Of a stretch of 64,000 nucleotides of DNA, positions 10,840-31,000 are shown piece after piece; within the stretch, counting starts at the first letter, position 1, and every line of letters begins with the position of its first letter. Location: contig NZ_QEKI01000011.1 in NCBI RefSeq assembly GCF_003096355.1, forward strand, positions 1 through 64,000. The letters run 5' to 3'. The position numbers and the translations under genes were made by a program. Under the pieces are notes generated by a model. It searched no databases and was not told the origin of the DNA. It saw nothing but the letters and a program-made list of their open reading frames with translations. The DNA is from Pontibacter virosus (GTDB taxonomy: Bacteria > Bacteroidota > Bacteroidia > Cytophagales > Hymenobacteraceae).

Positions 10840-12348
10840 CTATCTGCCATATAACTCGATTTCCTGCTTCAGCCGCTGGGCCGTCGTTTTGGTGAACATG
10901 CCCGGTTGCAGGCGCCATTGCCAGTTGCCTTTAGCCGTAGAGGGCTTGTTCATAATGGCTTCCTTGCCGAGGCCCAACACATCCTGTATCGGTAGTACCA
11001 CCAGTTGCGACACCGACATAAAAGCCAGTCTGGCCATCACACCGCTCACATTTTCCTTCGACAGGCGCTGGGCGCTGTAGTCACTCAGGCGCTTCTTGTC
11101 GTCGCGGCTGGCATCGTGCTCATACCAGGCCCGCACGGTGCTGTTGTCGTGGGTGCCCGTGTACACGATGGAGTTTTGTACGTGGTGGTGCGGCGCATAC
11201 AAACTGTGTGGCAGGTCTTCGCCAAAAGCGAAGAGCAGCACGCGCATACCTGGCAGATCAAATTGCGCCATCAGGTCGCGCACAGGCTGGTCGATCTCGC
11301 CCAGGTCTTCGGCGATGATGGGCATGGCCGGGAATTTCCGCTTTACCTCTGTTAGCAATTTGGCACCAGGTGTATTCACCCACTTTCCATTGATAGCAGT
11401 TTCTTCACCGGCTGGCACTTCCCAGTAAGCCGAAAAAGCGCGGAAATGGTCGAGCCGCAGCAGGCCGAAAAGCTCCAGGTTGTGGGCAATGCGTTGCAGC
11501 CACCAGTCGAAATTCTGTTTTTCCAGTTCTTCCCAATCAAAGACAGGCGTGCCCCAAAGCTGACCGGTCTCGCTGAAGTAGTCGGGTGGCACACCCGACA
11601 CAGCAGTCGGCATACCGGCCCGGTCGAGTTTAAAAATGTGCGGATGCGACCATACGTCCGCGCTGTCGTGGCTTACATAAAAAGGCATGTCGCCGATGAA
11701 GGTGATTTCTTTGGAGGTGCAGTAGGTTTTAAGGGCTTCCCACTGCCGGTAAAAGAGGAATTGCAGAAAAGCCTCACGCTCAATATCACTGGCCAACTCG
11801 GCCGATAGCGCTTCTATGGTGTGGTCCTGTCTTGTCTTTACTTTTTCAGGCCACTCGGTCCAGGGCATATGGTTATAGTAATGTTTAAGCGCCACAAAGC
11901 AGGTGAAGTCAGGCAACCACCCTTTGTGCGCCTCCTGAAAACGAACGAACTCGCCTTGCAGCTTGCTGGCTTTACCCTCTTTGTAGTTGTCGTAGGCCTG
12001 TTGCAGGAGCTTCACTTTATATTCCGCCACCCTCGGGTAGTTTACCTTGGCTTTGTCGAAACCACCCCCTGCCCGGATATCTTTTTTGTCTAACAGCCCA
12101 TCTTCGACCAAGCGCTCCGGACTGATGAGCAACGGATTGCCAGCAAAGGCCGAGTGGCTACTGTAAGGCGAATTGCCAGAGCCAATTTCGGTCGGGTTGA
12201 GGGGCAGAATCTGCCAATAGCGCTGGCCCGCCTCAGCCAGAAGGTCTGCGAACTTATAAGCTTCAGAGCCCAGATCGCCGATGCCGTAGGCCGATGGGAG
12301 GGAGGTGATGTGGAGCAGTATGCCACTGCTTCGCTTGGGTATGATCAT
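10840..12348 (-). CDS. malQ: 4-alpha-glucanotransferase (amylomaltase)
   Basis: GH77 enzyme that transfers maltosyl or longer segments between alpha-1,4-glucans and releases glucose. 502 residues. Conserved parts are the N-terminal RSSGILLHITSLPSAYGIGDLG, nucleophile D300 (LLRLDHFRAF), general acid E347 (IIAEDLGEI) and D401 (TGTHDNSTV), plus the GH77 stretch GDMPFYVSHDSADVW. Its ATG overlaps the treY stop by 4 bp (ATGA), so translation is probably coupled. It is the last gene of the minus-strand unit treZ, GH57, treY, malQ, where it can rework maltodextrins left by TreY/TreZ action. Confidence 0.97.
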   Translation of the reverse strand: MIIPKRSSGILLHITSLPSAYGIGDLGSEAYKFADLLAEAGQRYWQILPLNPTEIGSGNSPYSSHSAFAGNPLLISPERLVEDGLLDKKDIRAGGGFDKAKVNYPRVAEYKVKLLQQAYDNYKEGKASKLQGEFVRFQEAHKGWLPDFTCFVALKHYYNHMPWTEWPEKVKTRQDHTIEALSAELASDIEREAFLQFLFYRQWEALKTYCTSKEITFIGDMPFYVSHDSADVWSHPHIFKLDRAGMPTAVSGVPPDYFSETGQLWGTPVFDWEELEKQNFDWWLQRIAHNLELFGLLRLDHFRAFSAYWEVPAGEETAINGKWVNTPGAKLLTEVKRKFPAMPIIAEDLGEIDQPVRDLMAQFDLPGMRVLLFAFGEDLPHSLYAPHHHVQNSIVYTGTHDNSTVRAWYEHDASRDDKKRLSDYSAQRLSKENVSGVMARLAFMSVSQLVVLPIQDVLGLGKEAIMNKPSTAKGNWQWRLQPGMFTKTTAQRLKQEIELYGR

Positions 12349-15062
12349 AGGTTCGTAGAAGTTAAGAGTGCTACAGGAAAAGACTTAAATATTTCTGCCA
12401 GTGTTATAGCCTGCTTCGCCTGTAGCTGCTGTCCGCCAAACAACTGCTGCCATACCTGTGGTGATCCGGCCGGAAGCTCCACCGCAGTGTCGTCCCATAC
12501 CTGCTCACCCAGTGGCAGTTCTTTTTCGGAGATAATGTCGGTGAGCAGGCGCGGCACTACCACGATGCACCAGTTGTCTTCGTAGCGACGTGCAAAAGCC
12601 ATGGCACGTTTGCTGTGCTTGCCTTTTAGCCGCAACGGGATGTAGTCGCCCTGGTCAAAAAGTGGTTTTTGATCTTTACGGAGGTGTAGTACCTGGTGCA
12701 ACAGGTATAGCTTCACGCGCGCATCGGTGGGGGATGATAGCAGTTGCTCCAGCCAATCTTCAGATTGTTCACTGGTCTTTATTCCTTGTAGGAACTGCTG
12801 CCGTTGCTCGTAGTCCACAGGGCGGCGGTTGTCGGGGTCTACCAGGCTGAAGTCCCAGAGTTCGCAACCCTGGTAGACATCGGGTACGCCCGGGCAGGTA
12901 GTTTTGAGAAGCGTCTGGCAAAGTGAGTAGATCCAGCCGAAGTGGGCCGCTTTCCGGAAAAACGGACGGAAAGAAGACATGAATGCCTCGTCTTCCAGCA
13001 GCAGTTTTTTCACCAGGTCTTTGGTTGCTGTTTCATAGGCCTCGTTCGGCTCCGACCAATTGGTGTTGACCTTGGCCTCCCGGAAAGCTTTTACCAGGTA
13101 TTCCTGCACCCGCTCTACCAAGGTGTCATCCACCTTGCCATCAATTGGCATCACGCCCAGCAGAGTCTGCAGAATGAAGTAGAGGTCGTTCGCTGTCGGG
13201 CCCTTTTCCTTACTGTGCTGCTGCGCCAGTTGCATCCAGTCTTTCGCCTTTTTTTCCCATTCTTCCGGCAACTCGCTCAGTACCTGCAGGCGCGTGCGGG
13301 AGCCTTCGCCGCGTTTGGTGTCGTGCGTAGCCGTGGCATTGATGGAGTGCGGATAGGTCTGCATGCGGTATTCCATGCGCTCGTGAAAATCACGGCGGTC
13401 GAGGTTGAATACATCCGGACTGTTGCCCACTTCGTTGAGCGCCAGCAGGCGGTTGTAATTATAAAAGGTGGTGTCTTCCACGCCTTTGGCCGCCAACGGC
13501 CCTGTAAACTGCTGGCTGCGCATTACGAAGTAAAGCTTTTCCCGTCTCTTCTCTTCGCTGTCCTGATCGCCAGACTCAAACAAGGTACGCAGGTGCTCCA
13601 ACTCAGCTCTCACTTCGGGAGCTTTTTCGTGTGCAATGGCGAAGGCCTTCTCCACCACTTCCATGGCTTCTGGTGACAACGGAAAGGCATGGCCGTAGAT
13701 GCGGTATACCGGGAAAGAAGCCAGCAGGGTAGCCAGCGTATGATGCCAGTTTTTATCGTCAGCAGGTATAAGCGCACACTCGCGCAGCAGTCGCAACAGA
13801 TTCTGCAGTTCGCCCTGCATGTAGTTTTCAAGTATCAGCAGCTTCTTCTCGTACACCAGTCCCTCGTAGTCAAGGGGCGCTTCGGGCACAAGGCGGCGGT
13901 ATACCTGTGTCAGTTTGCGTTCGCCTTCGGCATCGGTATAGAGGTTGCTCACCCAAGCCAGAAAATCGTAGCCGCTGTTGCCCTGTATAGGCCAGTAGTC
14001 GGGCATGTTTTCTTCGCCCTCCAGGATTTTCTCCACCACCAGGTATACCTGCTCGCCAGCCAGTTCGCGAAGCTGCGTCAGGTACTTGTCCGGGTCAAAG
14101 AGTCCGTCGACGTGATCAACCCGCAGGCCCTGCACCAGTTGCCGCATGCAGAGCTCTTTGATGAATTGGTGATAATGGCTGAACACCTCCTCGCGTTCCA
14201 TGGCCGTGCAGATCAGATCATTGACGGTGAAAAAACGCCGGTAGTTGATCTGCTTTTCCGTTTCCTGCCAGTGGTTCAAAATGTAGTACTGCTGCTGCTG
14301 CAGTTCCCGCAAGGCTGACTCGTCATCGTTTATACCTTGCAGCACATTGGCTATACCTAGTTTTATATCCGGCTGGTCCTGTGCAGTTTGGTGGAGTGCC
14401 TTTTTCGCCTGCTCCCAGTCATTTGGCTCCAGTGTGTCATGCGCCATCAGCTGCTCCAGCTTTTGCACCTGTTCTGCCAGTTGCGCTTTGACATCACTTG
14501 GAGTGAGGTTTCCAGCAACGCGTTGCAGCAGGAAAGTATAGCTGTCGATGCTGATCGGGTATACATTGTCGAAGTAATTTAGCCGAAAGCCATGTTCATC
14601 AAATGTGACCTTGAGCTGCCCTTGTTTGATGACTTCATCCAAAGGCTCTCCGAGAAAAGGCACCATCAGCTGACCTTTAAAATCAGGATGGCTGAAGTTG
14701 ACGTCGAAGAAGGTGTAGTAGCGCGATTTCTGGCCTTTCTCCAGCACGTCCATCAACCAGGCATTGTTCGGATGGAAGGCCATGTGATTCGGCACAATAT
14801 CCTGCAGCCAGCCCATGCCATACGCTTTCAATTCTTCGGCTATTTCCTGCAGCTCTTCCATGTTGCCCACTTCGGGGTTGATCTGGTGCGGGTCTGTCAC
14901 ATCATAGCCGTGCTCACTGCCGGGACGGGCCGTGAAAAAAGGTGCGGCATAGATCGTGCTGATGCCCAGATCCCGCAGGTAGGGAAGTATGTTTTTCAGA
15001 TCTCGTAGCGTAAACTTTGGCGAGAGCTGTACTCTGTATGTGGAAGAAGGTATGTATACCAT
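12345..15062 (-). CDS. treY: Malto-oligosyltrehalose synthase
   Basis: GH13_26 enzyme that isomerises the reducing-end alpha-1,4 bond of maltodextrins to the alpha,alpha-1,1 bond, producing maltooligosyl trehalose. 905 residues, in the normal range. The N-terminus STYRVQLSPKFTLRD is diagnostic, as are the long insertions of the TreY catalytic domain. The nucleophile stretch is QGLRVDHVDGLFDP and the C-terminal GVPDVYQGCELWDFSLVDPDNRRPVDY is the family signature. It partners with treZ upstream in the same direction, though a GH57 gene lies between. No TreX debranching gene is seen in the window. Confidence 0.97.
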   Translation of the reverse strand: MVYIPSSTYRVQLSPKFTLRDLKNILPYLRDLGISTIYAAPFFTARPGSEHGYDVTDPHQINPEVGNMEELQEIAEELKAYGMGWLQDIVPNHMAFHPNNAWLMDVLEKGQKSRYYTFFDVNFSHPDFKGQLMVPFLGEPLDEVIKQGQLKVTFDEHGFRLNYFDNVYPISIDSYTFLLQRVAGNLTPSDVKAQLAEQVQKLEQLMAHDTLEPNDWEQAKKALHQTAQDQPDIKLGIANVLQGINDDESALRELQQQQYYILNHWQETEKQINYRRFFTVNDLICTAMEREEVFSHYHQFIKELCMRQLVQGLRVDHVDGLFDPDKYLTQLRELAGEQVYLVVEKILEGEENMPDYWPIQGNSGYDFLAWVSNLYTDAEGERKLTQVYRRLVPEAPLDYEGLVYEKKLLILENYMQGELQNLLRLLRECALIPADDKNWHHTLATLLASFPVYRIYGHAFPLSPEAMEVVEKAFAIAHEKAPEVRAELEHLRTLFESGDQDSEEKRREKLYFVMRSQQFTGPLAAKGVEDTTFYNYNRLLALNEVGNSPDVFNLDRRDFHERMEYRMQTYPHSINATATHDTKRGEGSRTRLQVLSELPEEWEKKAKDWMQLAQQHSKEKGPTANDLYFILQTLLGVMPIDGKVDDTLVERVQEYLVKAFREAKVNTNWSEPNEAYETATKDLVKKLLLEDEAFMSSFRPFFRKAAHFGWIYSLCQTLLKTTCPGVPDVYQGCELWDFSLVDPDNRRPVDYEQRQQFLQGIKTSEQSEDWLEQLLSSPTDARVKLYLLHQVLHLRKDQKPLFDQGDYIPLRLKGKHSKRAMAFARRYEDNWCIVVVPRLLTDIISEKELPLGEQVWDDTAVELPAGSPQVWQQLFGGQQLQAKQAITLAEIFKSFPVALLTSTNL

Positions 15063-17745: not shown

Positions 17746-19596
17746 TTATAGGATGATATTGCTTTGGTATACGGTAACAGAAGCGGCCGGCAGTTCTACT
17801 TCCTGACCTGCGCTCAACTCCTGCGGCAACGCTATACCTGCCCCGCCATACCTGTTCTCATCTGAATGCAGCACCAGTTTCCATGCAGCACCCACCTCTT
17901 TCACTACTTTAATTTTTTGAGGTTGGTTACTTATGTTAAATAAGGCATAGAGATACGGACTCTCACCGGAGTGGATCAAATGCAACACCTGGGTATGGCT
18001 GTCCGCTGCAACATGCAGGCGGGCCTTGTCAGGTCTTGTCAGGGCAGGGGCTGACTTGCGGAGCCGGATAAGCGCCTTGTAGAAGTCACGCAGCTGGCGG
18101 TGTTTTTCACTGTGCTCGTACGTACGCTGCAGTTTCGATTGGTTAAACGTCTCCTCTGACTGCGGATCCGGTGCCTCACCCTGCCAGGCAAAAGCCGAGA
18201 ATTCTTCTTTGCGTCCATTTCGCACGGCCTCTACCAGGTCTTTGTCAGAGTGGCTCACAAAGTACAGGAACGGATTTTCCTCACCATATTCTTCGCCCAT
18301 GAACAGCATGGGTGTAAAAGGGGAGAGCAGCACCAAGCCGGCCGCCACTTTGAGCATGTCGTAAGAAACCAGTTGCGGCAATCGCTCGCCGAGCATGCGG
18401 TTGCCCACCTGGTCGTGGTTTTGGGAGCAGACCACAAACTGACGGGCGGGGTTGGCGGTGGCGTCGCTACCGAAGGTGCGCTTGCGGTGCTCGGAGTAAA
18501 GGCCGTCGTACACAAAGCCATGTTGCAGTGCTTTTTGCAGTTGCTCCAGTTTGCCAAAGTCGCTGTAGTAGCCGGAGTCCTCGCTCGTAAGCAGCGCGTG
18601 TACGGCATGATGGAAATCGTCGCTCCACTGCGCTGCCAGTCCAAAGCCGCCTTTCTCCACCGGATTGATGATGCGTACATCGTTCAGGTCGCTTTCTGCA
18701 ATCAGGATGAAGGGGCGGCCCAACTGCTGCTCCAGGTGCTCCACCTGCTCCTGCAACTCCAGCAAAAAGTGCTTGGCGCCTGTGTCGAGGATGGCGTGCA
18801 CGGCATCGAGGCGCAAAGCATCGATGTGGTAATCGCGCAACCATAGCAGGGCGTTCTGGATGAAAAAGTTGCGCACATGGTCGCTGTGGGCATCATCAAA
18901 ATTGAGTGCCTTGCCCCAGGGCGTATTATACTTATTAGTGAAGTAAGGACCGAAGTCATTGAGGTAATTGCCTTCCGGACCCAGGTGGTTGTACACCACA
19001 TCCAGCACCACGGCTATACCTGCAGCATGGCAGGCGTCCACCAGTTTTTTCAGTCCCTCAGGACCACCGTACGAATTCTGCACCGCCGAAGGGTATACGC
19101 CATCATAGCCCCAGTTACGACTGCCAGCAAAAGCAGCTACCGGCATCAGTTCGATGGCCGTTATACCTAAATCCACCAACTCCGGAAGTTTCTCGATGAT
19201 ACCCTGAAAAGTGCCCTCCTCGGAAAAGGTGCCCACGTGCAGTTCGTAGATGATGTACTGCTCCAGCGGCAGCGGTTTCCAATGTTTGTCGGTCCAGTTA
19301 AAGTCAGCGTGACTAACCACGGCTGAGGGTTCATGCACCCCATCGGGTTGAAAATGAGAGGCGGGGTCGGGCCGTTCCATGTCTTCGTCAAGCCGCAAGG
19401 TATAGCGGGCTCCCGGACCCGTTTCTTCGCTTAGGGCGGTCCAGTAATGGAAGGCTTCCTGCTGCAGTGGTATTATCTTATCGTTATCTTTTAACACCAC
19501 GTCCACCTGCGTGGCGGTCGGTGCCCAAACCGTGAACAAGGTGCCTTTGCCAGGGGTATAATGTGCTCCTATTTCTCGTGTTATGCTCATTTTCAA
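17746..19596 (-). CDS. treZ: Malto-oligosyltrehalose trehalohydrolase
   Basis: GH13_10 enzyme that releases trehalose from maltooligosyl trehalose made by TreY. 616 residues: an N-terminal CBM48-like domain (GAHYTPGKGTLFTVWAPTA), then the barrel with YELHVGTFSEEGTF, nucleophile D264 (IDALRLDAVHAI), acid E301 (LIAESDLND) and SQNHDQVGNR. ATG at 19596 is used; the ATG two codons later (MSITREIG) is equally possible. First gene of the minus-strand glucan-to-trehalose unit and divergent from glgE, with 204 bp between them that should hold both promoters. Confidence 0.97.
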   Translation of the reverse strand: MKMSITREIGAHYTPGKGTLFTVWAPTATQVDVVLKDNDKIIPLQQEAFHYWTALSEETGPGARYTLRLDEDMERPDPASHFQPDGVHEPSAVVSHADFNWTDKHWKPLPLEQYIIYELHVGTFSEEGTFQGIIEKLPELVDLGITAIELMPVAAFAGSRNWGYDGVYPSAVQNSYGGPEGLKKLVDACHAAGIAVVLDVVYNHLGPEGNYLNDFGPYFTNKYNTPWGKALNFDDAHSDHVRNFFIQNALLWLRDYHIDALRLDAVHAILDTGAKHFLLELQEQVEHLEQQLGRPFILIAESDLNDVRIINPVEKGGFGLAAQWSDDFHHAVHALLTSEDSGYYSDFGKLEQLQKALQHGFVYDGLYSEHRKRTFGSDATANPARQFVVCSQNHDQVGNRMLGERLPQLVSYDMLKVAAGLVLLSPFTPMLFMGEEYGEENPFLYFVSHSDKDLVEAVRNGRKEEFSAFAWQGEAPDPQSEETFNQSKLQRTYEHSEKHRQLRDFYKALIRLRKSAPALTRPDKARLHVAADSHTQVLHLIHSGESPYLYALFNISNQPQKIKVVKEVGAAWKLVLHSDENRYGGAGIALPQELSAGQEVELPAASVTVYQSNIIL

Positions 19597-21837: not shown

Positions 21838-24800
21838 ATGGCAGAGGACAACACCCTTCTCGACGACAACATTCACTGGTACAAAGACGCCATCATTTAC
21901 GAGTTGCACATCAAAGCCTTTATGGATGGCAACGGCGATGGCATCGGCGACTTTAAAGGCCTGATGCAGAAGCTCGACTACCTGGAAGAGCTCGGCGTAA
22001 CCGCTATCTGGCTCTTGCCTTTTTACCCGTCGCCGCTCAAAGACGACGGCTACGACATTGCCGACTACTACAGCATCAATCCGAGCTATGGTACCATGCA
22101 GGATTTCAAGCTGTTCGTGAAAGAGGCACACCGCCGCGGGCTGAAGGTGATCACTGAGTTGGTCATCAACCACAGCTCCGACCAGCACCCCTGGTTCCAG
22201 CGGGCACGTCGTGCAAAGAAGGGCTCCAAGTACCGCAACTACTACGTGTGGTCCGACGACCCGACGCAGTACAAGGACGTGCGCATTATTTTTACCGATT
22301 ATGAGCCTAGCAACTGGACCTGGGACCCGGTAGCAGGGCAATACTACTGGCACCGCTTCTTCCACCACCAGCCCGACCTGAATTTCGACAACCCGGACGT
22401 GCAGCAGGAGGTGTTCAAGATGCTCGATTACTGGTTCGACATGGGCGTAGATGGTTTCCGTCTGGATGCAGTACCCTACCTGTTTGAGCGCGAAGGTACC
22501 AATGGCGAGAACCTGCCTGAGACCCACGACTTCCTGAAAAAACTGCGTGCCCACGTCGACAAGAAATACGAGGGCAAGCTGCTACTGGCTGAGGCGAATA
22601 TGTGGCCTGAGGATTCGGCATCATACTTTGGTGATGGCGACGAGTGCCACATGAACTATCACTTCCCGATCATGCCGCGTTTGTTCATGTCGGTGAAGAT
22701 GGAAGACCGCTACCCGATCATCGATATCTTCGACCAGACGCCGGCCATACCGGAAACCTGCCAGTGGGCGATGTTCCTGCGCAACCACGATGAACTTACG
22801 CTCGAGATGGTGACCGACGAGGAGCGCGACTACATGTACAAAGTGTATACCCGCGATCCGCTGGCCAAAATCAACCTGGGTATACGTCACCGCCTGGCCC
22901 CGCTGCTGGGTAACGACCGCGCCAAGATTGAGCTGATGAACGTACTGCTCTTCTCCATGAAGGGTACACCGGTGGTGTACTATGGCGACGAGATCGGTAT
23001 GGGCGACAATTACTATCTGGGCGACCGCGACGGCGTGCGCACACCGATGCAATGGAACGACAACCGCAATGCCGGCTTCTCCACCGCCAATCCGCAGAAG
23101 CTATACCTGCCCGTGATCATCGACCCGGAGTACAAGTATGAATCTGTGAACGTGGATACACAGCAGCACAATGCCAACTCACTATTGTGGTGGATGCGCC
23201 GCGTCATCAACATGCGCAAACGCTACAAGGCCTTTGGTCGTGGCGAGATACGTTTCCTGAACCCGTCCAACGCCAAAGTGCTGGCTTTTGTGCGCTCTTA
23301 TCAGGACGAGAACATTCTGGTAATTGCCAACCTGTCGCGCTTCCCGGAGGCTGTGGAGCTCGACTTGCCGGAGTTCAGAGGCTACGTGCCGGTGGAGGTG
23401 TTCAGCAAAAACAAATTCCCGCAGATTAAAGAAGATAGCTATGTGCTCACGATGGGAGCGCATGGATACTACTGGTTTGAGCTGCAGCCGCAGGAAGTAA
23501 GCGGTCGCGAAGGACTCGACATGAAAAAGCCGGCCATGCAACTGCCACCGCTCAGCCAGCCTATACCTTCCCGTGCGCTCAAAACACTCGAGAGCAAGGT
23601 GCTGCCGCCATATATCCTGAACCGCCGTTGGTTTGGGGGCAAGGCCCGTACGATTCAGCGCATGCAGGTGATCAGCAACACACCGATGACGTTCGGCCGA
23701 TTTGCCGCTTCGCTGCTGTTTATTGAGGTGAACTACAACGAAGGGCTGCCGGAACTCTACCAGTTGCCAATTGCCTTTGCCAGTGGAGAACAGGAAGAGG
23801 AACTGATCGCTACCCAACCGAATAGCGTAATCGCCCGTGTCACCCTGGATGGAAAAGAAGGCATCCTGTACGATGCGGTCTATTCTGAGGATTTCCGCCA
23901 GCTGTTGCTCAATTTGATGGCCAAACGCAAAAGCATTAAAGTGGACGGCGCTGAACTGGTTGGTACCGGAAGTCGAAGTATTGCCAGCAAAATAAAGGAA
24001 ATTGGTCAACCGCTTTCTTCTAAAATACTGGGAGCCGAGCAGAGTAACACATCGGTGCTGTACGACAATCAGTTTTTCCTGAAGGTATACCGCAAGCTCG
24101 ACCGTACCCAAAACCCTGATGTAGAGATCGTGCAGGCACTCACGGATAGAGAATTTGCAAACGTGCCGATGTACCTGGGCTCGATAGAACATGAAGAGGA
24201 GGGCAAACCGCCGATGGTGCTCGTGATGCTGCAGGAACTGGTGCCTAACCAGGGCGATGCCTGGGTATACATGGAGGATTCACTTAAACGCTTTTTTGAG
24301 CGATTGCAGACCCATAAGGACCACGAGCCGCTGACTGATACCACTGGCACCCTGGCCAGTCCTGTGCCATTCTCGGAAGCGCCGGAGCACATGCAGCTGC
24401 AGTTAGGAGGCGCGTCTGTGGAGCGCATCGAGTTACTGGGGCAGCGCACGGCCGAAATGCACCTGGCGCTGGCTGATATAATTGAATCCAAAGACTTTAC
24501 ACCGGAGGCCTTCTCGCTGCACTACCAGCGCTCACTTTACTCGTCGCTGACCTCGCTGGTGCGCAGTAATTTCGACAGTCTGAAAAAGCACTTGCCTAAC
24601 CTGCCGGATGCCGTGCGGGCGGAGGCCGAAGAAGTACTGCAAATGCGACAAGAGATACTGGAGCGGTTTAAAATGATCTTCCGCCGCAAGATAGATACCC
24701 AGAAAATACGCACCCACGGCGATTACCACCTGGGCCAGGTGCTCTTTACGGGGCGTGACTTTGTGATCATTGACTTTGAGGGGGAGCCCGCCCGTTCATT

Positions 24801-25170
24801 CAGCGAACGCCGACTCAAACGCTCTCCGTTGCGCGACGTGGCCGGTATGATCCGCTCGTTCCATTATGCAGCCTACAATGCGCTGTTCCAGCAGGACAAT
24901 TTCCGAAAAGACGACAGCGCCTACCTGGAGCAATGGGCCGAGCAGTGGTACCACTACGCCAGCGGTTTCTTTATGCACACCTATCTGGACAAAACGCAGG
25001 GCGCGGGCATTGTACCCGGCAACGAAGAAGACATCCAGGTGCTGATGGAGACCTTCCTGCTCGAAAAGGCGATCTACGAGTTGGGCTATGAACTGAACAA
25101 CCGTCCGGATTGGGTGCTCATCCCGATCAGAGGCATAAAGTACATCATGAGGAAATATCAGAATGGCTAA
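21838..25170 (+). CDS. treS: Trehalose synthase fused to maltokinase (TreS-Pep2)
   Basis: A bifunctional protein of 1110 residues. The first 560 or so form GH13_16 trehalose synthase, which interconverts trehalose and maltose: WYKDAIIYELHIKAFMDGNG, nucleophile D210 (GVDGFRLDAVPYL), acid E252 (LLLAEANMWPED) and D318 (LRNHDELTLEM). The C-terminal half is a maltokinase with LPPYILNRRWFGGKART at its start and the kinase catalytic loop HGDYHLGQVLF followed by VIIDFEGEPARSFSERR. The kinase half makes maltose 1-phosphate for GlgE. Fusion of the two is known in several phyla. The final 8 bp overlap the start of glgB. Confidence 0.96.
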   Translation: MAEDNTLLDDNIHWYKDAIIYELHIKAFMDGNGDGIGDFKGLMQKLDYLEELGVTAIWLLPFYPSPLKDDGYDIADYYSINPSYGTMQDFKLFVKEAHRRGLKVITELVINHSSDQHPWFQRARRAKKGSKYRNYYVWSDDPTQYKDVRIIFTDYEPSNWTWDPVAGQYYWHRFFHHQPDLNFDNPDVQQEVFKMLDYWFDMGVDGFRLDAVPYLFEREGTNGENLPETHDFLKKLRAHVDKKYEGKLLLAEANMWPEDSASYFGDGDECHMNYHFPIMPRLFMSVKMEDRYPIIDIFDQTPAIPETCQWAMFLRNHDELTLEMVTDEERDYMYKVYTRDPLAKINLGIRHRLAPLLGNDRAKIELMNVLLFSMKGTPVVYYGDEIGMGDNYYLGDRDGVRTPMQWNDNRNAGFSTANPQKLYLPVIIDPEYKYESVNVDTQQHNANSLLWWMRRVINMRKRYKAFGRGEIRFLNPSNAKVLAFVRSYQDENILVIANLSRFPEAVELDLPEFRGYVPVEVFSKNKFPQIKEDSYVLTMGAHGYYWFELQPQEVSGREGLDMKKPAMQLPPLSQPIPSRALKTLESKVLPPYILNRRWFGGKARTIQRMQVISNTPMTFGRFAASLLFIEVNYNEGLPELYQLPIAFASGEQEEELIATQPNSVIARVTLDGKEGILYDAVYSEDFRQLLLNLMAKRKSIKVDGAELVGTGSRSIASKIKEIGQPLSSKILGAEQSNTSVLYDNQFFLKVYRKLDRTQNPDVEIVQALTDREFANVPMYLGSIEHEEEGKPPMVLVMLQELVPNQGDAWVYMEDSLKRFFERLQTHKDHEPLTDTTGTLASPVPFSEAPEHMQLQLGGASVERIELLGQRTAEMHLALADIIESKDFTPEAFSLHYQRSLYSSLTSLVRSNFDSLKKHLPNLPDAVRAEAEEVLQMRQEILERFKMIFRRKIDTQKIRTHGDYHLGQVLFTGRDFVIIDFEGEPARSFSERRLKRSPLRDVAGMIRSFHYAAYNALFQQDNFRKDDSAYLEQWAEQWYHYASGFFMHTYLDKTQGAGIVPGNEEDIQVLMETFLLEKAIYELGYELNNRPDWVLIPIRGIKYIMRKYQNG

Positions 25171-27508
25171 GAAAAAGGAACAGGAAAACACACAGCAGAA
25201 CCCACTGACAGGTATGGAAACCGGTACCGGCGCAGCCATGAACGAAGGCACCGAACCAAACAAAACAGGGGGAAGAAAGAAAAGCAAGAAGGATGAAGGT
25301 AAGGCCACTGTGGAAGTGCAGTCTGGTAGTGCAGCAGCCCAACCCAAAAGGGGCAGGCCACGCAAAACGGACAACTCCGCTAAGGAGAGTGCAGCTGAGG
25401 AAATGATGGTGAAGCCAAAGCGGGGTCGTGCAGCTACAGCTACTTCAGTTGGACCAACTGCTGGGCAAAGTGAAACCAAACCGAAGCGAGGCAGGTCGAA
25501 TAAACCCGTAGCGCTGCAACAGGAGGCCCAGGAGGCAGGTCTGTCGACCACGCCTGCACCGGTGCTGGAGCAGCCCCGGCAGGAGCAGACCGGACCGGTC
25601 TACTACGATGTTAGCCGGCTTTCTGAGTTTGATGTATACCTGTTCCGCGAAGGCCGCCACTTTAACCTGTACGAGAAACTGGGTTCGCACCTGATGGAAC
25701 GACAAGGCACCAAAGGGGCATACTTTGCGGTATGGGCCCCGAATGCCGAGCAGGTATCCGTGATGGGCGACTTTAACTCCTGGAACCGAGAAAGCCACCA
25801 ACTGCAGGCGCGTGCTGATAACTCCGGCATCTGGGAAGGCTTTATTCCGGATGTGCAGGCAGGCATGCTGTATAAGTACCACATCAAGTCGCGCTACCAC
25901 ATGTACCATGTCGAGAAGAGCGACCCTTTTGCGCTACGCCGCGAAAAGCCTCCGCAAACGGCTTCGGTAGTGCACGAGTTCCGCCATACTTGGCAGGACC
26001 AGAACTGGTTGGCACAGCGCAAGTCGCGCCATGGCCAGCCGCAGCCTTATTCTGTGTATGAAATGCATGTGGGCTCGTGGCGCCGCAAGCCCGAAGACAA
26101 CAACCGTCCACTGACTTACCGCGAACTGGCTGAGGAACTGCCCGCTTACGTCAAAGATCTGGGCTTTACGCACGTGGAGTTCATGCCGGTTATGTACCAT
26201 CCCTTCAGTGGCTCCTGGGGCTACCAGATCACGGGCTATTTTGCGGCAGCCAGTCTCTACGGTTCGCCCGAAGACCTGATGTTCCTGATCGATGCCCTGC
26301 ACCGCGAAGGCATCGGGGTGATCATGGACTGGGTGCCCTCGCACTTCCCGTCCGATGAGCACGGTTTGGCTTACTTCGACGGCACGCACCTGTTCGAGCA
26401 CGCCGATCCGCGCAAAGGCTACCACCCGGACTGGAACAGCTACATTTTCAACTACGGTCGCAACGAGGTGCGTTCTTTCCTGATCAGCAACGCACTGTTC
26501 TGGCTGGATAAGTATCATGTGGATGGCCTGCGGGTAGATGCCGTCGCCTCGATGCTATACCTGGACTACAGCCGCAAGCACGACGAGTGGATCCCGAACG
26601 AGTTTGGCGGACGCGAGAACCTGGAGGCGATTTCTTTGCTGAAAGATTTTAATGAAGCCGTGCACACGCAGTTCCCGGAAACGCTCACGATTGCGGAAGA
26701 ATCCACGGCCTGGCCTCAGGTGACGGGCAAGGTAGCAGACGGCGGTCTGGGCTTTGACATGAAATGGATGATGGGTTGGATGCACGACACGCTTACCTAT
26801 TTTTCCAAAGACCCGATCTACCGCAGGCACCACCAGGGTGATATCACCTTCAGTATTATCTACGCGTTCAGCGAGCACTTCATGCTACCGCTCTCGCATG
26901 ATGAAGTGGTGCACGGGAAAGGCTCCCTGATTCGCAAGATGCCGGGCGATGAGTGGCAGGCTTTTGCCAACCTGCGGGCGCTCTATACTTACATGTACGC
27001 GCACCCAGGCGCCAAACTCCTGTTTATGGGCGGCGAAATGGCACAAAGCACCGAGTGGAACCATGACAGCAGCCTGGACTGGCACTTGCTGCAGTATGGC
27101 AACCATGCAGGTATACAGGAGCTCATACGTGCTCTGAACCATACCTATCAGCAGGAGCCGGCCCTCTACGGGAAAGCGTTTGAACCAGCAGGCTTTGAGT
27201 GGATTGACTATAATGATGCCCATAACAGTGTGATCAGTTTCCTGCGCAAAGGAGAGCGGCCGGAAGAGCAACTGCTGGTGGTTTGTAATTTCACGCCGGG
27301 CGTGCACGACAACTACCGCCTGGGCGTACCGACCGGTGGCAATTGGGTAGAGGTGTTCAACAGCGATGATAGCCTTTTCGGTGGAAGCAACTTCCATAAC
27401 CACGGCACGCTGCAGGCTATACCTGATTCCTTCCATGGGCATGATTACTCCATTGTGCTGAAACTCCCACCTATGGCGGTGGTGTATTTTAAGTACCAGC
27501 CAGCGTAG
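25163..27508 (+). CDS. glgB: 1,4-alpha-glucan branching enzyme with AT-hook-like N-terminal tail
   Basis: GH13_9 enzyme that introduces alpha-1,6 branches into glycogen-like glucan. Residues 1-145 are low-complexity, rich in Lys, Gly, Glu and Ala, with three basic motifs: PKRGRPRK (61-68), KPKRGRA (84-90) and KPKRGRS (106-112). The enzyme proper follows: CBM48 (GAYFAVWAPNAEQVSVMGDFN), nucleophile D459 (GLRVDAVASM), acid E512 (TIAEESTAWP) and LSHDEVVHGKGS. The start overlaps treS by 8 bp (ATGGCTAA), implying coupled translation. A strong terminator follows at 27542, so this closes the glgE-treS-glgB operon. The tail is not needed for the known activity. Confidence 0.96.
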   Translation: MAKKKEQENTQQNPLTGMETGTGAAMNEGTEPNKTGGRKKSKKDEGKATVEVQSGSAAAQPKRGRPRKTDNSAKESAAEEMMVKPKRGRAATATSVGPTAGQSETKPKRGRSNKPVALQQEAQEAGLSTTPAPVLEQPRQEQTGPVYYDVSRLSEFDVYLFREGRHFNLYEKLGSHLMERQGTKGAYFAVWAPNAEQVSVMGDFNSWNRESHQLQARADNSGIWEGFIPDVQAGMLYKYHIKSRYHMYHVEKSDPFALRREKPPQTASVVHEFRHTWQDQNWLAQRKSRHGQPQPYSVYEMHVGSWRRKPEDNNRPLTYRELAEELPAYVKDLGFTHVEFMPVMYHPFSGSWGYQITGYFAAASLYGSPEDLMFLIDALHREGIGVIMDWVPSHFPSDEHGLAYFDGTHLFEHADPRKGYHPDWNSYIFNYGRNEVRSFLISNALFWLDKYHVDGLRVDAVASMLYLDYSRKHDEWIPNEFGGRENLEAISLLKDFNEAVHTQFPETLTIAEESTAWPQVTGKVADGGLGFDMKWMMGWMHDTLTYFSKDPIYRRHHQGDITFSIIYAFSEHFMLPLSHDEVVHGKGSLIRKMPGDEWQAFANLRALYTYMYAHPGAKLLFMGGEMAQSTEWNHDSSLDWHLLQYGNHAGIQELIRALNHTYQQEPALYGKAFEPAGFEWIDYNDAHNSVISFLRKGERPEEQLLVVCNFTPGVHDNYRLGVPTGGNWVEVFNSDDSLFGGSNFHNHGTLQAIPDSFHGHDYSIVLKLPPMAVVYFKYQPA

Positions 27509-27788: not shown

Positions 27789-28388
27789 CTACTTCCCCTT
27801 CCTGAGCGGCAAAAACTTGGTAAAACTTCGCTTGCGTTCGCCCTCCTCGCTGGGAAGACTTGTGTCCGAAACCGAGCGTACATCTTCGATGGAGTAAAAA
27901 GCGTTGGGGTTGTAGTCGCGGATAATGTCGATGACTTCTGTCATTTTCTTGCGCTTCACAATCATGAAAAGCAGATTGACTTTGCCACGCGAGCCTTTCG
28001 CGTCCAAAGCGGTGAGGCGGTAGCCTCTGTTGGTCAGGCGACTGATGAGCTCGTCGCCTGAATCTACCGTGATAACCCGCACCACGACCTGGCCCAAGGC
28101 CAGCATCTGCTCAATGCGCAGCCCCAAGAAATTGCCCGCGGCAAATCCGCCCGCCCAGGCAAGGTAGGACGCAAAGTTGCTCAGGTTCTGCATCACCTGC
28201 GTGATGGCTACGAGCCAAATGAGTACTTCCACGAAGCCTAGCAGCGGAGCAATGGTTTTGTCGCCTTTCGAGATGAAAACAATACGGAGGGTGCCCAGCG
28301 TAACGTCCATGATGCGGGCCAGAAAAATAAGAGCAGGTATAATGACCCAATTGACGATTTCCGGGTCAATTCCTTTAAAGTAATCCAT
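27789..28388 (-). CDS. DUF2179/UPF0316 family membrane protein
   Basis: 199 residues. Three hydrophobic segments in the N-terminal half (WVIIPALIFLARIMDVTLG, LLGFVEVLIWLVAITQVM, YLAWAGGFAAGNFLG) are followed by a cytosolic alpha/beta domain of the DUF2179 type (VVRVITVDSGDELISRLTNRGY, MIVKRKKMTEVIDIIRDYNPNAFYSIEDV). The ATG at 28388 (MDYFKGIDPEIV) is favoured over one 17 codons earlier because it leads directly into the first conserved segment. Function unknown in the family. Convergent with glgB and not obviously linked to it. Confidence 0.85.
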   Translation of the reverse strand: MDYFKGIDPEIVNWVIIPALIFLARIMDVTLGTLRIVFISKGDKTIAPLLGFVEVLIWLVAITQVMQNLSNFASYLAWAGGFAAGNFLGLRIEQMLALGQVVVRVITVDSGDELISRLTNRGYRLTALDAKGSRGKVNLLFMIVKRKKMTEVIDIIRDYNPNAFYSIEDVRSVSDTSLPSEEGERKRSFTKFLPLRKGK

Positions 28389-28792
28389 GGGGTGATTTGT
28401 TCTTTGGCTAATGTGTAAGCTGTTACTGACAACGACCAAAAATAGTTTTCTGATTTAAACAGGGTTGGTCTTGTGCAGTGCTTCCGGGCGAGGCCCTTTT
28501 ATAAAGGTACTAAGTTTTTTGCGTATATGGTACCTTATCTCCGGATATGGCTTATATGGCTAGGTATAAAGGGGATGACCTTGCAGATAGGTAGGTGTAG
28601 TGGCAGGCAGCGATTTTATTTCATATTAATTTTACTATATAGTCAAAACGTGCGCCCAATTATATCCGTATGTTATAAAGACTGCCTGTACCATAATTTG
28701 ACGAAGCATATTTTTTAAAATCCGGACCCTGAATGCAGCTGGCTCACACCCTGGGTCGGTTGCTGCAGATGCCAGACATAAGGTGTAATCAC
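28389..28792. other. Intergenic region before the otsA-otsB fusion, no gene seen
   Basis: 404 bp between divergent genes. The part from about 28610 to 28715 is AT-rich and probably holds the promoter for the trehalose phosphate synthase gene, but I find no exact TAnnTTTG element at a convincing spacing. Short open frames here have no recognisable content. Confidence 0.4.
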
Positions 28793-31000
28793 ATGGCGAA
28801 ATTGATTATTGTGTCAAACCGACTCCCTGTAAAGCTACAGGAACATGAGGGTCGGCTTGATTTTAAACCGAGTGAGGGCGGCCTCGCAACGGGATTAGGC
28901 TCTGTATATAAGAAAAAGAACAACCTTTGGATTGGCTGGCCGGGCATGGTGGTTGAGGATGAATCGCAGCAACAGCAGATCGTCGACAACCTGAATGGAC
29001 AGAACATGCACCCAGTCTTTCTTTCCGAAAAAGAAATAAAAGAGTTTTACGAGGGCTTCAGCAATGAAACGTTGTGGCCTACTTTCCACTATTTCAGTCA
29101 GTACGCTATTTACGAACAGCAGCTTTGGGAAACGTATGTTGAGGTAAACCAGAAGTATTGTGACGAGCTGGTAAAAGTGGCGGAGCCCGATGACACGATC
29201 TGGGTGCACGATTACCAGTTGCTGCTACTGCCGTCGATGCTGCGCGAGAAGTTACCGGAGAGTACTATTGGGTTCTTTCAGCATATACCGTTTCCATCCT
29301 ACGAAGTTTTCCGCCTCCTGCCCTGGCGCAAGGAGCTGCTGGAAGGTATGCTGGGCTCCGACCTGATCGGTTTCCATACCTACGACGACATGCGCCACTT
29401 CCTCAGCTCGGTCAACCGACTGGTGGGCCACGGCAGCACGCATGGCTGGATCAACACCGGTAACCGCTCGCTGCTCGTCGACTCCTTTCCGATGGGCATC
29501 GACTATGAGAAGTATGAGCAGACTGCTGAGAGTGAGGAGGTGAAAAAGCGTGAGAAGATCTACCGCAATAACCTGCACTCCAAAAAGATCGTGCTCTCCA
29601 TCGACCGACTCGACTACTCCAAAGGTATACCGCAACGACTGCAGGCCTTTGAGCTGTTTCTGGAGCGCTATCCGGAGTTTCACGAAAAGGTAACGTTGGT
29701 AATGCTCGTGGTGCCGTCGCGTGACGCGGTGGACAAATACAAGGAGCTGAAAGAGGAGGTGGACGAACTGGTGGGCCGCATCAACGGCAATTACAGCCAC
29801 ATGAACTGGAATCCGATCCAGTACTTCTACCGCTCGTACCCGCTCGAAACGCTTTCTGCCTTTTACCGCATGGCGGATGTGGCCCTGGTAACGCCGATGC
29901 GCGATGGTATGAACCTGGTCTGCAAAGAGTACGTGGCGAGCAAGCTCGACCAGACAGGCGTGCTAATCCTGAGTGAGATGGCGGGGGCTTCCAAAGAGCT
30001 TTCCGAGGCGCTTCTGATCAACCCGAATGACATCAACCAGATGGTGGAGACGCTGCACACAGCCCTTACCATGCCCGAAGAAATTCAGAAGCAGCACATG
30101 CAGCATATGCAGGAATCGCTGCGCAGGTATAACATCCACCACTGGGTGAGCATGTTCATGGACCGCCTCTCTTATGTCAAGATTAAACAGCTGTCCATGG
30201 CCACCACATACCTCGACGAGGCAACATATCAGGAACTCAGCAACTCGTATGAAGAGGCCAGTTCGCGTCTGTTCTTCCTGGAGTATGACGGGGCTCTGGT
30301 CGACTACCAGGGCCGTCCGCTGATGGCTGCGCCTGACGAAGACCTGCTGGAGCTTTTGCAGATGCTGAGCAGCAATTCCAAGAACCGGGTGGTGGTGATC
30401 AGCAGCCGCGAGAAAGACACCATGCAACGCTGGTTGGGACACATGAACATCGACCTGATAGCCGAGCATGGCGTGTGGATAAAGCAGCGCGGCACCGGCT
30501 GGCAGACCATGACCAGCCTGATCGACGACTGGAAGAGCGACATCCGCCTGATTCTGGATTTGTACGTGGACCGCACGCCGGGCTCTTTTATTGAGGAGAA
30601 AGAGTACTCACTGGTATGGCACTACCGCCGCGTAGAAACTGGTTTGGGTGAGTTGCGTGCACGTGAGCTCGTGAGCCACCTCAACTTCCTGGCCACCAAC
30701 AGCAACCTGCAGGTGCTCGACGGACAAATGGCCGTAGAGATCAAGGCGCAGGAAGTGAGCAAGGGAAAGGCAACCAGTTACTGGCTCAACATGTACCCGC
30801 ATGATTTTGTGCTGGCCATTGGCGATGACTGGGGCGACGAGGATATCTTCAAAGCCATGCCGCGCGAGGCTTATACCGTGAAGATCGGAAACACGCACTC
30901 CGTGGCAAAGTATCACCTTGATAGCTGTGAAGAAGCCCGGAAACTGCTCTCCAGATTGGTGGGGCTCAAGCAAAAAAAGCTACCGAAAGAATTGCTGTAA
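28793..31000 (+). CDS. otsA: Trehalose-6-phosphate synthase fused to a trehalose-phosphatase-like domain with altered catalytic Asp
   Basis: 735 residues from the ATG at 28793 (MAKLIIVSNRLPVKL); an earlier ATG at 28733 would add 20 unrelated residues. Residues 1-470 form GT20 trehalose-6-phosphate synthase (EGGLATGLGSV, HDYQLLLLPSML, LSIDRLDYSKGIPQRL, DGMNLVCKEYVA). Residues 490-735 are HAD trehalose-phosphatase-like. Motif IV (GDDWGDEDIF) and the Lys of motif III (VEIKAQEVSKGKAT) are present, but motif I reads FFLEYDGALV, where the family has LDYDGTL: the nucleophilic Asp is Glu (codon GAG at 30281-30283) and Thr is Ala. The synthase half should work; the phosphatase half may not. A terminator follows. 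Confidence 0.95.
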   Translation: MAKLIIVSNRLPVKLQEHEGRLDFKPSEGGLATGLGSVYKKKNNLWIGWPGMVVEDESQQQQIVDNLNGQNMHPVFLSEKEIKEFYEGFSNETLWPTFHYFSQYAIYEQQLWETYVEVNQKYCDELVKVAEPDDTIWVHDYQLLLLPSMLREKLPESTIGFFQHIPFPSYEVFRLLPWRKELLEGMLGSDLIGFHTYDDMRHFLSSVNRLVGHGSTHGWINTGNRSLLVDSFPMGIDYEKYEQTAESEEVKKREKIYRNNLHSKKIVLSIDRLDYSKGIPQRLQAFELFLERYPEFHEKVTLVMLVVPSRDAVDKYKELKEEVDELVGRINGNYSHMNWNPIQYFYRSYPLETLSAFYRMADVALVTPMRDGMNLVCKEYVASKLDQTGVLILSEMAGASKELSEALLINPNDINQMVETLHTALTMPEEIQKQHMQHMQESLRRYNIHHWVSMFMDRLSYVKIKQLSMATTYLDEATYQELSNSYEEASSRLFFLEYDGALVDYQGRPLMAAPDEDLLELLQMLSSNSKNRVVVISSREKDTMQRWLGHMNIDLIAEHGVWIKQRGTGWQTMTSLIDDWKSDIRLILDLYVDRTPGSFIEEKEYSLVWHYRRVETGLGELRARELVSHLNFLATNSNLQVLDGQMAVEIKAQEVSKGKATSYWLNMYPHDFVLAIGDDWGDEDIFKAMPREAYTVKIGNTHSVAKYHLDSCEEARKLLSRLVGLKQKKLPKELL

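Follow-up and report, generated by a model that had tools for sequence, protein, structure and literature searches.

In the genus Pontibacter, the phosphatase half of the OtsA-OtsB fusion protein (TPSP) carries Glu in place of the catalytic nucleophile Asp, together with further changes in the catalytic core, in every one of 50 genomes, all of which also encode a separate trehalose-phosphatase, OtsB. From the sequences, we consider it fairly likely that the fused half is a pseudo-phosphatase, kept as a stabilising or regulatory module that probably binds trehalose 6-phosphate (T6P), and that the hydrolysis of T6P has moved to the separate OtsB. A pseudo-phosphatase had been proposed from the DNA of one strain in an earlier sequence-only reading, and the proposal was strongly supported at the sequence level by the genus-wide fixation, the joint changes in the core, the conservation of the domain, and the constant presence of OtsB.

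The fusion gene and its catalytic motifs

The window, which is the whole stretch of 64,000 nucleotides of Pontibacter virosus DNA that was analysed, holds a compact trehalose/alpha-glucan hub at 10840-31000, with the genes for MalQ, TreY, a GH57-DUF3536 protein, and TreZ on one strand and those for GlgE, TreS-maltokinase, GlgB, and the TPSP on the other. The genes and domains that concern us are as follows.

12345..15062, minus strand: TreY (TIGR02401, 890 bits)
17746..19596, minus strand: TreZ (TIGR02402, 744 bits)
21838..25170, plus strand: TreS-maltokinase fusion (TIGR02456 and TIGR02457, above cut-off)
28733..31000, plus strand: OtsA-OtsB fusion (TPSP), 755 aa as listed (NF011071, 1010 bits against a cut-off of 634; PF00982, 531 bits; PF02358, 159 bits)
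28793..30193, plus strand: T6P synthase (GT20) half, aa 21-487 (TIGR02400 above cut-off; catalytic residues kept)
30245..30961, plus strand: trehalose-phosphatase half (HAD, C2B cap), aa 505-743, a predicted pseudo-phosphatase (motif alignment, AF2 model, and fold match)

The true start of the fusion is likely Met21 (28793), where its homologs begin. A Pfam search placed PF00982 at aa 23-480 and PF02358 at aa 515-726, that is, a GT20 synthase followed by a HAD trehalose-phosphatase on a single chain, as is characteristic of a TPSP. In the alignment of the synthase half, for which the nearest PDB entry was 5huv, the Arg, Asp, His, Lys, and Glu catalytic columns were invariant. Upstream, GlgB (25163-27508, plus strand) is extended at its N-terminus by some 150 residues, in which Lys, Pro, Gly, and Arg abound and (K)PKRGR is repeated, before the conserved branching enzyme begins at about aa 151-157, and a DUF5698/DUF2179 protein (27789-28439, minus strand) is encoded between GlgB and the fusion gene.

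The catalytic motifs of the phosphatase half were altered at the following positions.

30281..30283, plus strand: codon GAG, E517 replacing the nucleophilic Asp (50/50 in the genus versus 0/19 in sister genera)
30293..30295, plus strand: codon GCT, A521 replacing the Thr of DxDx(T/V) (A 43, G 6, V 1 in the genus versus T in 19/19)
30401..30409, plus strand: motif II, S557-S558-R559 (SGR to SSR; S558 in 50/50 versus G in 19/19)
30824..30838, plus strand: motif IV, D698-D699-W700-G701-D702 (DDRTD to DDWGD; alignment)

The two substitutions in motif I that had been read from the single sequence, Glu for the catalytic Asp and Ala for the usual Thr, were both borne out in frame. Motif I is LEYDG[A/G/V] in all 50 Pontibacter genomes and LDYDGT in all 19 aligned fusions of five further genera in the family, and the alignment of fusions across the order, which had been proposed as a check, showed Glu fixed in Pontibacter and Asp in the sister-genus fusions aligned. 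The fused half has ExDx(A/G/V) where a catalytic TPP has DxDx(T/V). The statement that the other motifs are intact held only in part: Ser557, Lys677, Asp698, Asp699, and Asp702 are kept, but G558S and R700W are found in 50/50 and T701G in 49/50 Pontibacter sequences, whereas all 19 sister-genus sequences have the ancestral residue, so that the GDDRTDED of sister genera has become GDDWGDED. Motifs II-IV thus retain their Ser, Lys, and Asp residues, with Gly changed to Ser and Thr to Gly. In a tree of the synthase half, the Pontibacter rows formed one clade (support 99), so that the change arose once there.

Taking as conserved any position that is the same in at least 18 of the 19 sister-genus sequences, 5 of 20 conserved positions in the catalytic motifs were changed in Pontibacter, compared with none of the 10 ligand-contact positions of the cap and 4 of 54 positions in the domain outside the motifs and cap contacts (p = 0.03 for the excess of change in the core motifs over the remainder of the domain). 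The synthase half, for which a slightly looser conservation cut was used, had changed at 4 of 223 such positions.

Sugar site, fold, and constraint of the phosphatase half

Three segments of the phosphatase half bear on its putative sugar site.

30593..30601, plus strand: cap E621 and K623, aligned to the T6P-binding E131 and K133 of C. albicans Tps2; kept (50/50)
30620..30628, plus strand: cap H630-Y631-R632 (H140/R142 of Tps2); kept (50/50)
30725..30733, plus strand: Q665-M666-A667 replacing N/D-K-V in the loop before E669 (50/50 versus N13 D6 / K16 M2 R1 / V14 I5)

Among the residues listed as T6P contacts of C. albicans Tps2 (PMC9079074), R67, E131, K133, H140, R142, and E180 align to R559, E621, K623, H630, R632, and E669 of the fusion, all of which are kept in 50/50 genomes. 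The loop aligned to Tps2 K176-N178 reads N/D-K-V in sister genera and Q-M-A in Pontibacter. Judged by this alignment, the sugar site is preserved for the most part, not wholly. With the cap contacts preserved, T6P binding is still predicted to be probable; the altered loop 665-667 in the sugar site may weigh against it, and the Glu, placed where phosphate would sit, could keep phosphate out. In the Cryptococcus Tps2 domain crystal 5dx9, Asn aligns to the nucleophilic Asp, and we take this structure to hold T6P, in which case it would show that a nucleophile-dead TPP is able to bind its substrate.

The AF2 model of the phosphatase half (mean pLDDT 90) has the C2B-cap HAD fold. It matched C. albicans TPP (5dxi) with a Z of 30.5 and an rmsd of 1.6 A over 239 aligned residues, and the domain of a regulatory protein (5hus) with a Z of 23.0 and an rmsd of 2.5 A over 229, these VIA-align/Foldseek matches denoting a shared fold, not activity. 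The full-length model had a pTM of 0.68, and the packing of the domains is not settled by it.

In the synthase half, the mean pairwise dN/dS within a close Pontibacter group was 0.024, and in the phosphatase half it was 0.019; synonymous changes approach saturation beyond this group and are numerous even inside it, so that only the direction of these values is reliable. At a synthase identity of 0.80-0.85, the phosphatase half was 79% identical in Pontibacter pairs versus 73% in active-type pairs. The inactive-looking half is under strong purifying selection, its conservation being no lower than that of active-type halves.

The separate OtsB and its co-occurrence with broken motifs

It had been argued that free T6P would need another enzyme, and the suggested genome search for a stand-alone OtsB found exactly one further trehalose-phosphatase, on C6, between a betaPGM-like gene and a GH65 gene. 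The gene row there (L082:5431-10435) is betaPGM-OtsB-GH65-PfkB, with the OtsB frame overlapping the GH65 frame; at some Pontibacter loci betaPGM and OtsB lie within one frame, or two betaPGM genes are consecutive, and at a few a GH65 gene is missing within reach. The enzyme scored 189 bits with TIGR00685, above cut-off, and was found in 50/50 Pontibacter genomes. In 30/30 sampled Pontibacter sequences it has LDYDGC, SGRD, HKGKA, and GDD[IL]TDED, with the Asp, Ser, and Lys residues and motif IV intact and Cys in motif I where DxDx(T/V) has Thr or Val. A separate OtsB was not found in genomes of the family outside Pontibacter, where the second matches, among those listed, were also fusions. M. 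tuberculosis OtsB1 (Rv2006) is, judging by its size, presumably a betaPGM-OtsB-GH65 protein, apparently of the same arrangement as the stand-alone OtsB locus of Pontibacter, except that the Pontibacter genes are separate or partly joined.

In the survey of the order no more than two candidates were scored in any genome, so the genomes of interest were re-searched with PF02358. Outside Pontibacter, only two of the order fusions examined break motif I, namely that of G217 (L199), with IGYDGT, and the second fusion of G247 (L190), with LDYDGA and GDNWTDEE; a separate OtsB is encoded in both genomes, and G247 retains a canonical fusion too. Weighing against a link between OtsB and the loss, three genera have a separate OtsB and retain a canonical fusion (genomes G572, G393, G239, and G226, the last two being imperfect bins). 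Counted by genus, a broken fused motif I accompanied a separate OtsB in 3/6 cases and the absence of one in 0/46 (Fisher p = 0.0009); the counts were 2/5 versus 0/46 (p ~0.008) when the index case, Pontibacter, was left out, the genera not being fully independent in either count. Seven genomes from other lineages, whose fusions are canonical, yielded no second phosphatase. Single changes also occur in otherwise ordinary fusions, in motif IV of L161 (GGDW) and motif II of L293 (SER).

In Atribacterota, all seven fusions (L155, L159, L163, L165, L166, L167, and L176) lack the Tps2-type E131, which is replaced by Gln, and R142, which is replaced by Ile, Phe, Val, or Thr; the nucleophile is changed from Asp to Asn in two of them, and the Lys of motif III is lost in one. 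A second phosphatase is present in 6/7 of these genomes, and betaPGM-OtsB with GH65 adjoining was found in all five examined. Here it is the sugar-binding residues, rather than mainly the nucleophile, that were lost, a second and different route to what is probably a pseudo-phosphatase.

The presence of TreY, TreZ, TreS-maltokinase, and related genes in the window indicates that trehalose can form without T6P, and a GH37 trehalase is likewise present. We found TreY in 34/34 Pontibacter genomes and in 25 genomes of the sister genera g2, g3, and g6, whereas it was below cut-off in g4 and g5. Every sampled fusion of g2, g3, and g6 has LDYDGT, so that TreYZ does not explain the loss of the phosphatase motifs, for which the separate OtsB accounts better.

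Proposed role of the phosphatase half and comparison with known systems

We propose that, in the ancestor of Pontibacter, the fused phosphatase half lost its nucleophile through the change of Asp to Glu, along with further residues of the core, either once a separate OtsB, encoded beside betaPGM and a GH65 enzyme, had been gained or at the same time. The half would have been retained in folded form, as a pseudo-phosphatase whose task is to stabilise or regulate the T6P synthase half and which probably still binds T6P. With the fusion making T6P and the separate OtsB hydrolysing it, the level of T6P could be set independently of the trehalose that comes from TreYZ/TreS. In every Pontibacter species checked, the retired half is preserved and a separate phosphatase is present, which suggests that the half now has a structural or sensing part, and the analogy of eukaryotic TPS proteins and of Thermoproteus tenax makes it plausible that the half controls the synthase half.

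A role that is purely structural, in which the half is needed for folding or oligomerisation of the synthase and binds no ligand, is doubtful yet deserves serious weight. The strong constraint on the whole domain and the altered loop of the sugar site agree with it, as does the requirement for the fused TPP domain when GT activates the T. tenax synthase (PMC3634074), but a scaffold would not need the 10 ligand-contact positions conserved in sister genera, all of which are kept, and the Atribacterota halves lost just such residues. It is rather unlikely, on the other side, that the pseudo-phosphatase half would be a T6P-sensing allosteric domain, with T6P as a carbon-status signal and trehalose from TreYZ/TreS, in an independently evolved counterpart of the plant TPS1-T6P system. 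Between T6P sensing and a plain scaffold, the data favour neither strongly.

The separate OtsB might have a role other than the dephosphorylation of T6P, with trehalose supplied by TreYZ/TreS and T6P serving only as a metabolite or signal, and we regard this as rather unlikely. The TreYZ and TreS genes in the window would allow it; the Cys in motif I and the lack of TPP activity in M. tuberculosis OtsB1 (PMC11046441) are caveats to the view that OtsB is the replacement. However, both Asp residues of motif I, the Ser, the Lys, and the GDDxTDED are kept in 30/30, and the predicted loss of fused activity tracks the separate OtsB across lineages, TreY without OtsB going with canonical motifs.

We think it very improbable that the fused half has kept phosphatase activity, at a low rate or with altered specificity, and uses Glu as the nucleophile: the second Asp, the Ser, the Lys, and the Mg-binding Asp are all retained in a conserved domain, but the Thr of motif I and the Thr of motif IV are gone as well, and to our knowledge no HAD phosphatase with a Glu nucleophile has been described. 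Activity was undetectable in the nucleophile mutant D213A of B. malayi TPP (PMC4081830), which likewise speaks against a Glu nucleophile and leads us to predict that the fused half is inactive. A decaying relic heading for loss might be expected where a replacement enzyme is present and catalysis appears lost, but it is highly improbable and is contradicted by the sequence constraint, given a half that is full length in 50 species, with genus-specific residues fixed and a dN/dS of about 0.02 in the close group, beyond which synonymous sites approach saturation. The base-call or assembly error at 30281-30283 that might have explained the Glu is refuted, with practically no likelihood left to it, since 50 independent Pontibacter genomes, and named GTDB records too, share the residue, which is thus no product of faulty sequencing and no peculiarity of one strain.

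Fused T6P synthases whose phosphatase half is inactive are textbook knowledge in plants and fungi, where trehalose metabolism is linked through them to signalling. Such TPP halves have been described in fungal regulators and in plant class I TPS (PMC9079074, PMC3634074), while our search of the literature available without subscription found no report of a bacterial TPS whose TPP domain is inactive and nothing relevant on Pontibacter with trehalose and otsB. Pontibacter offers a genus-wide bacterial case, with close sister genera whose motifs are still canonical and with parallels in other lineages, in which the role of the retired half is testable by domain swaps among near relatives. Automatic annotation (NF011071, TIGR00685) will label such fusions bifunctional despite the missing nucleophile.

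A close likeness within the phylum is the bifunctional TPSP of Cytophaga hutchinsonii, a two-domain fusion of the same NF011071 family that is cited in PMC3634074 as complementing both yeast tps1 and tps2; the Pontibacter fusion differs in that the nucleophile of its TPP half and further residues of the core are missing. The TPSP-GT complex of T. tenax likewise contains a prokaryotic TPSP whose synthase is activated via the fused TPP domain, but its TPP half is active with conserved motifs, unlike that of Pontibacter. Fungal Tps3/Tsl1, to which the C-terminal domain of the C. albicans regulatory protein (5hus) belongs, are also regulatory proteins with a TPP-like domain; they are separate subunits of a complex, whereas the candidate regulator of Pontibacter is fused to its synthase. 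Like plant class I TPS of the AtTPS1 type, the Pontibacter fusion combines a synthase half with its catalytic residues kept and a TPP half without the nucleophile; in sugarcane class I TPS that half carries D25G and D27N (PMC9079074). Plant class I proteins have also lost sugar-binding residues (K133R, H140N, and R142K), whereas Pontibacter keeps D27, E131, K133, H140, R142, and E180, and its nucleophile change arose on its own branch, separately from that of plant class I.
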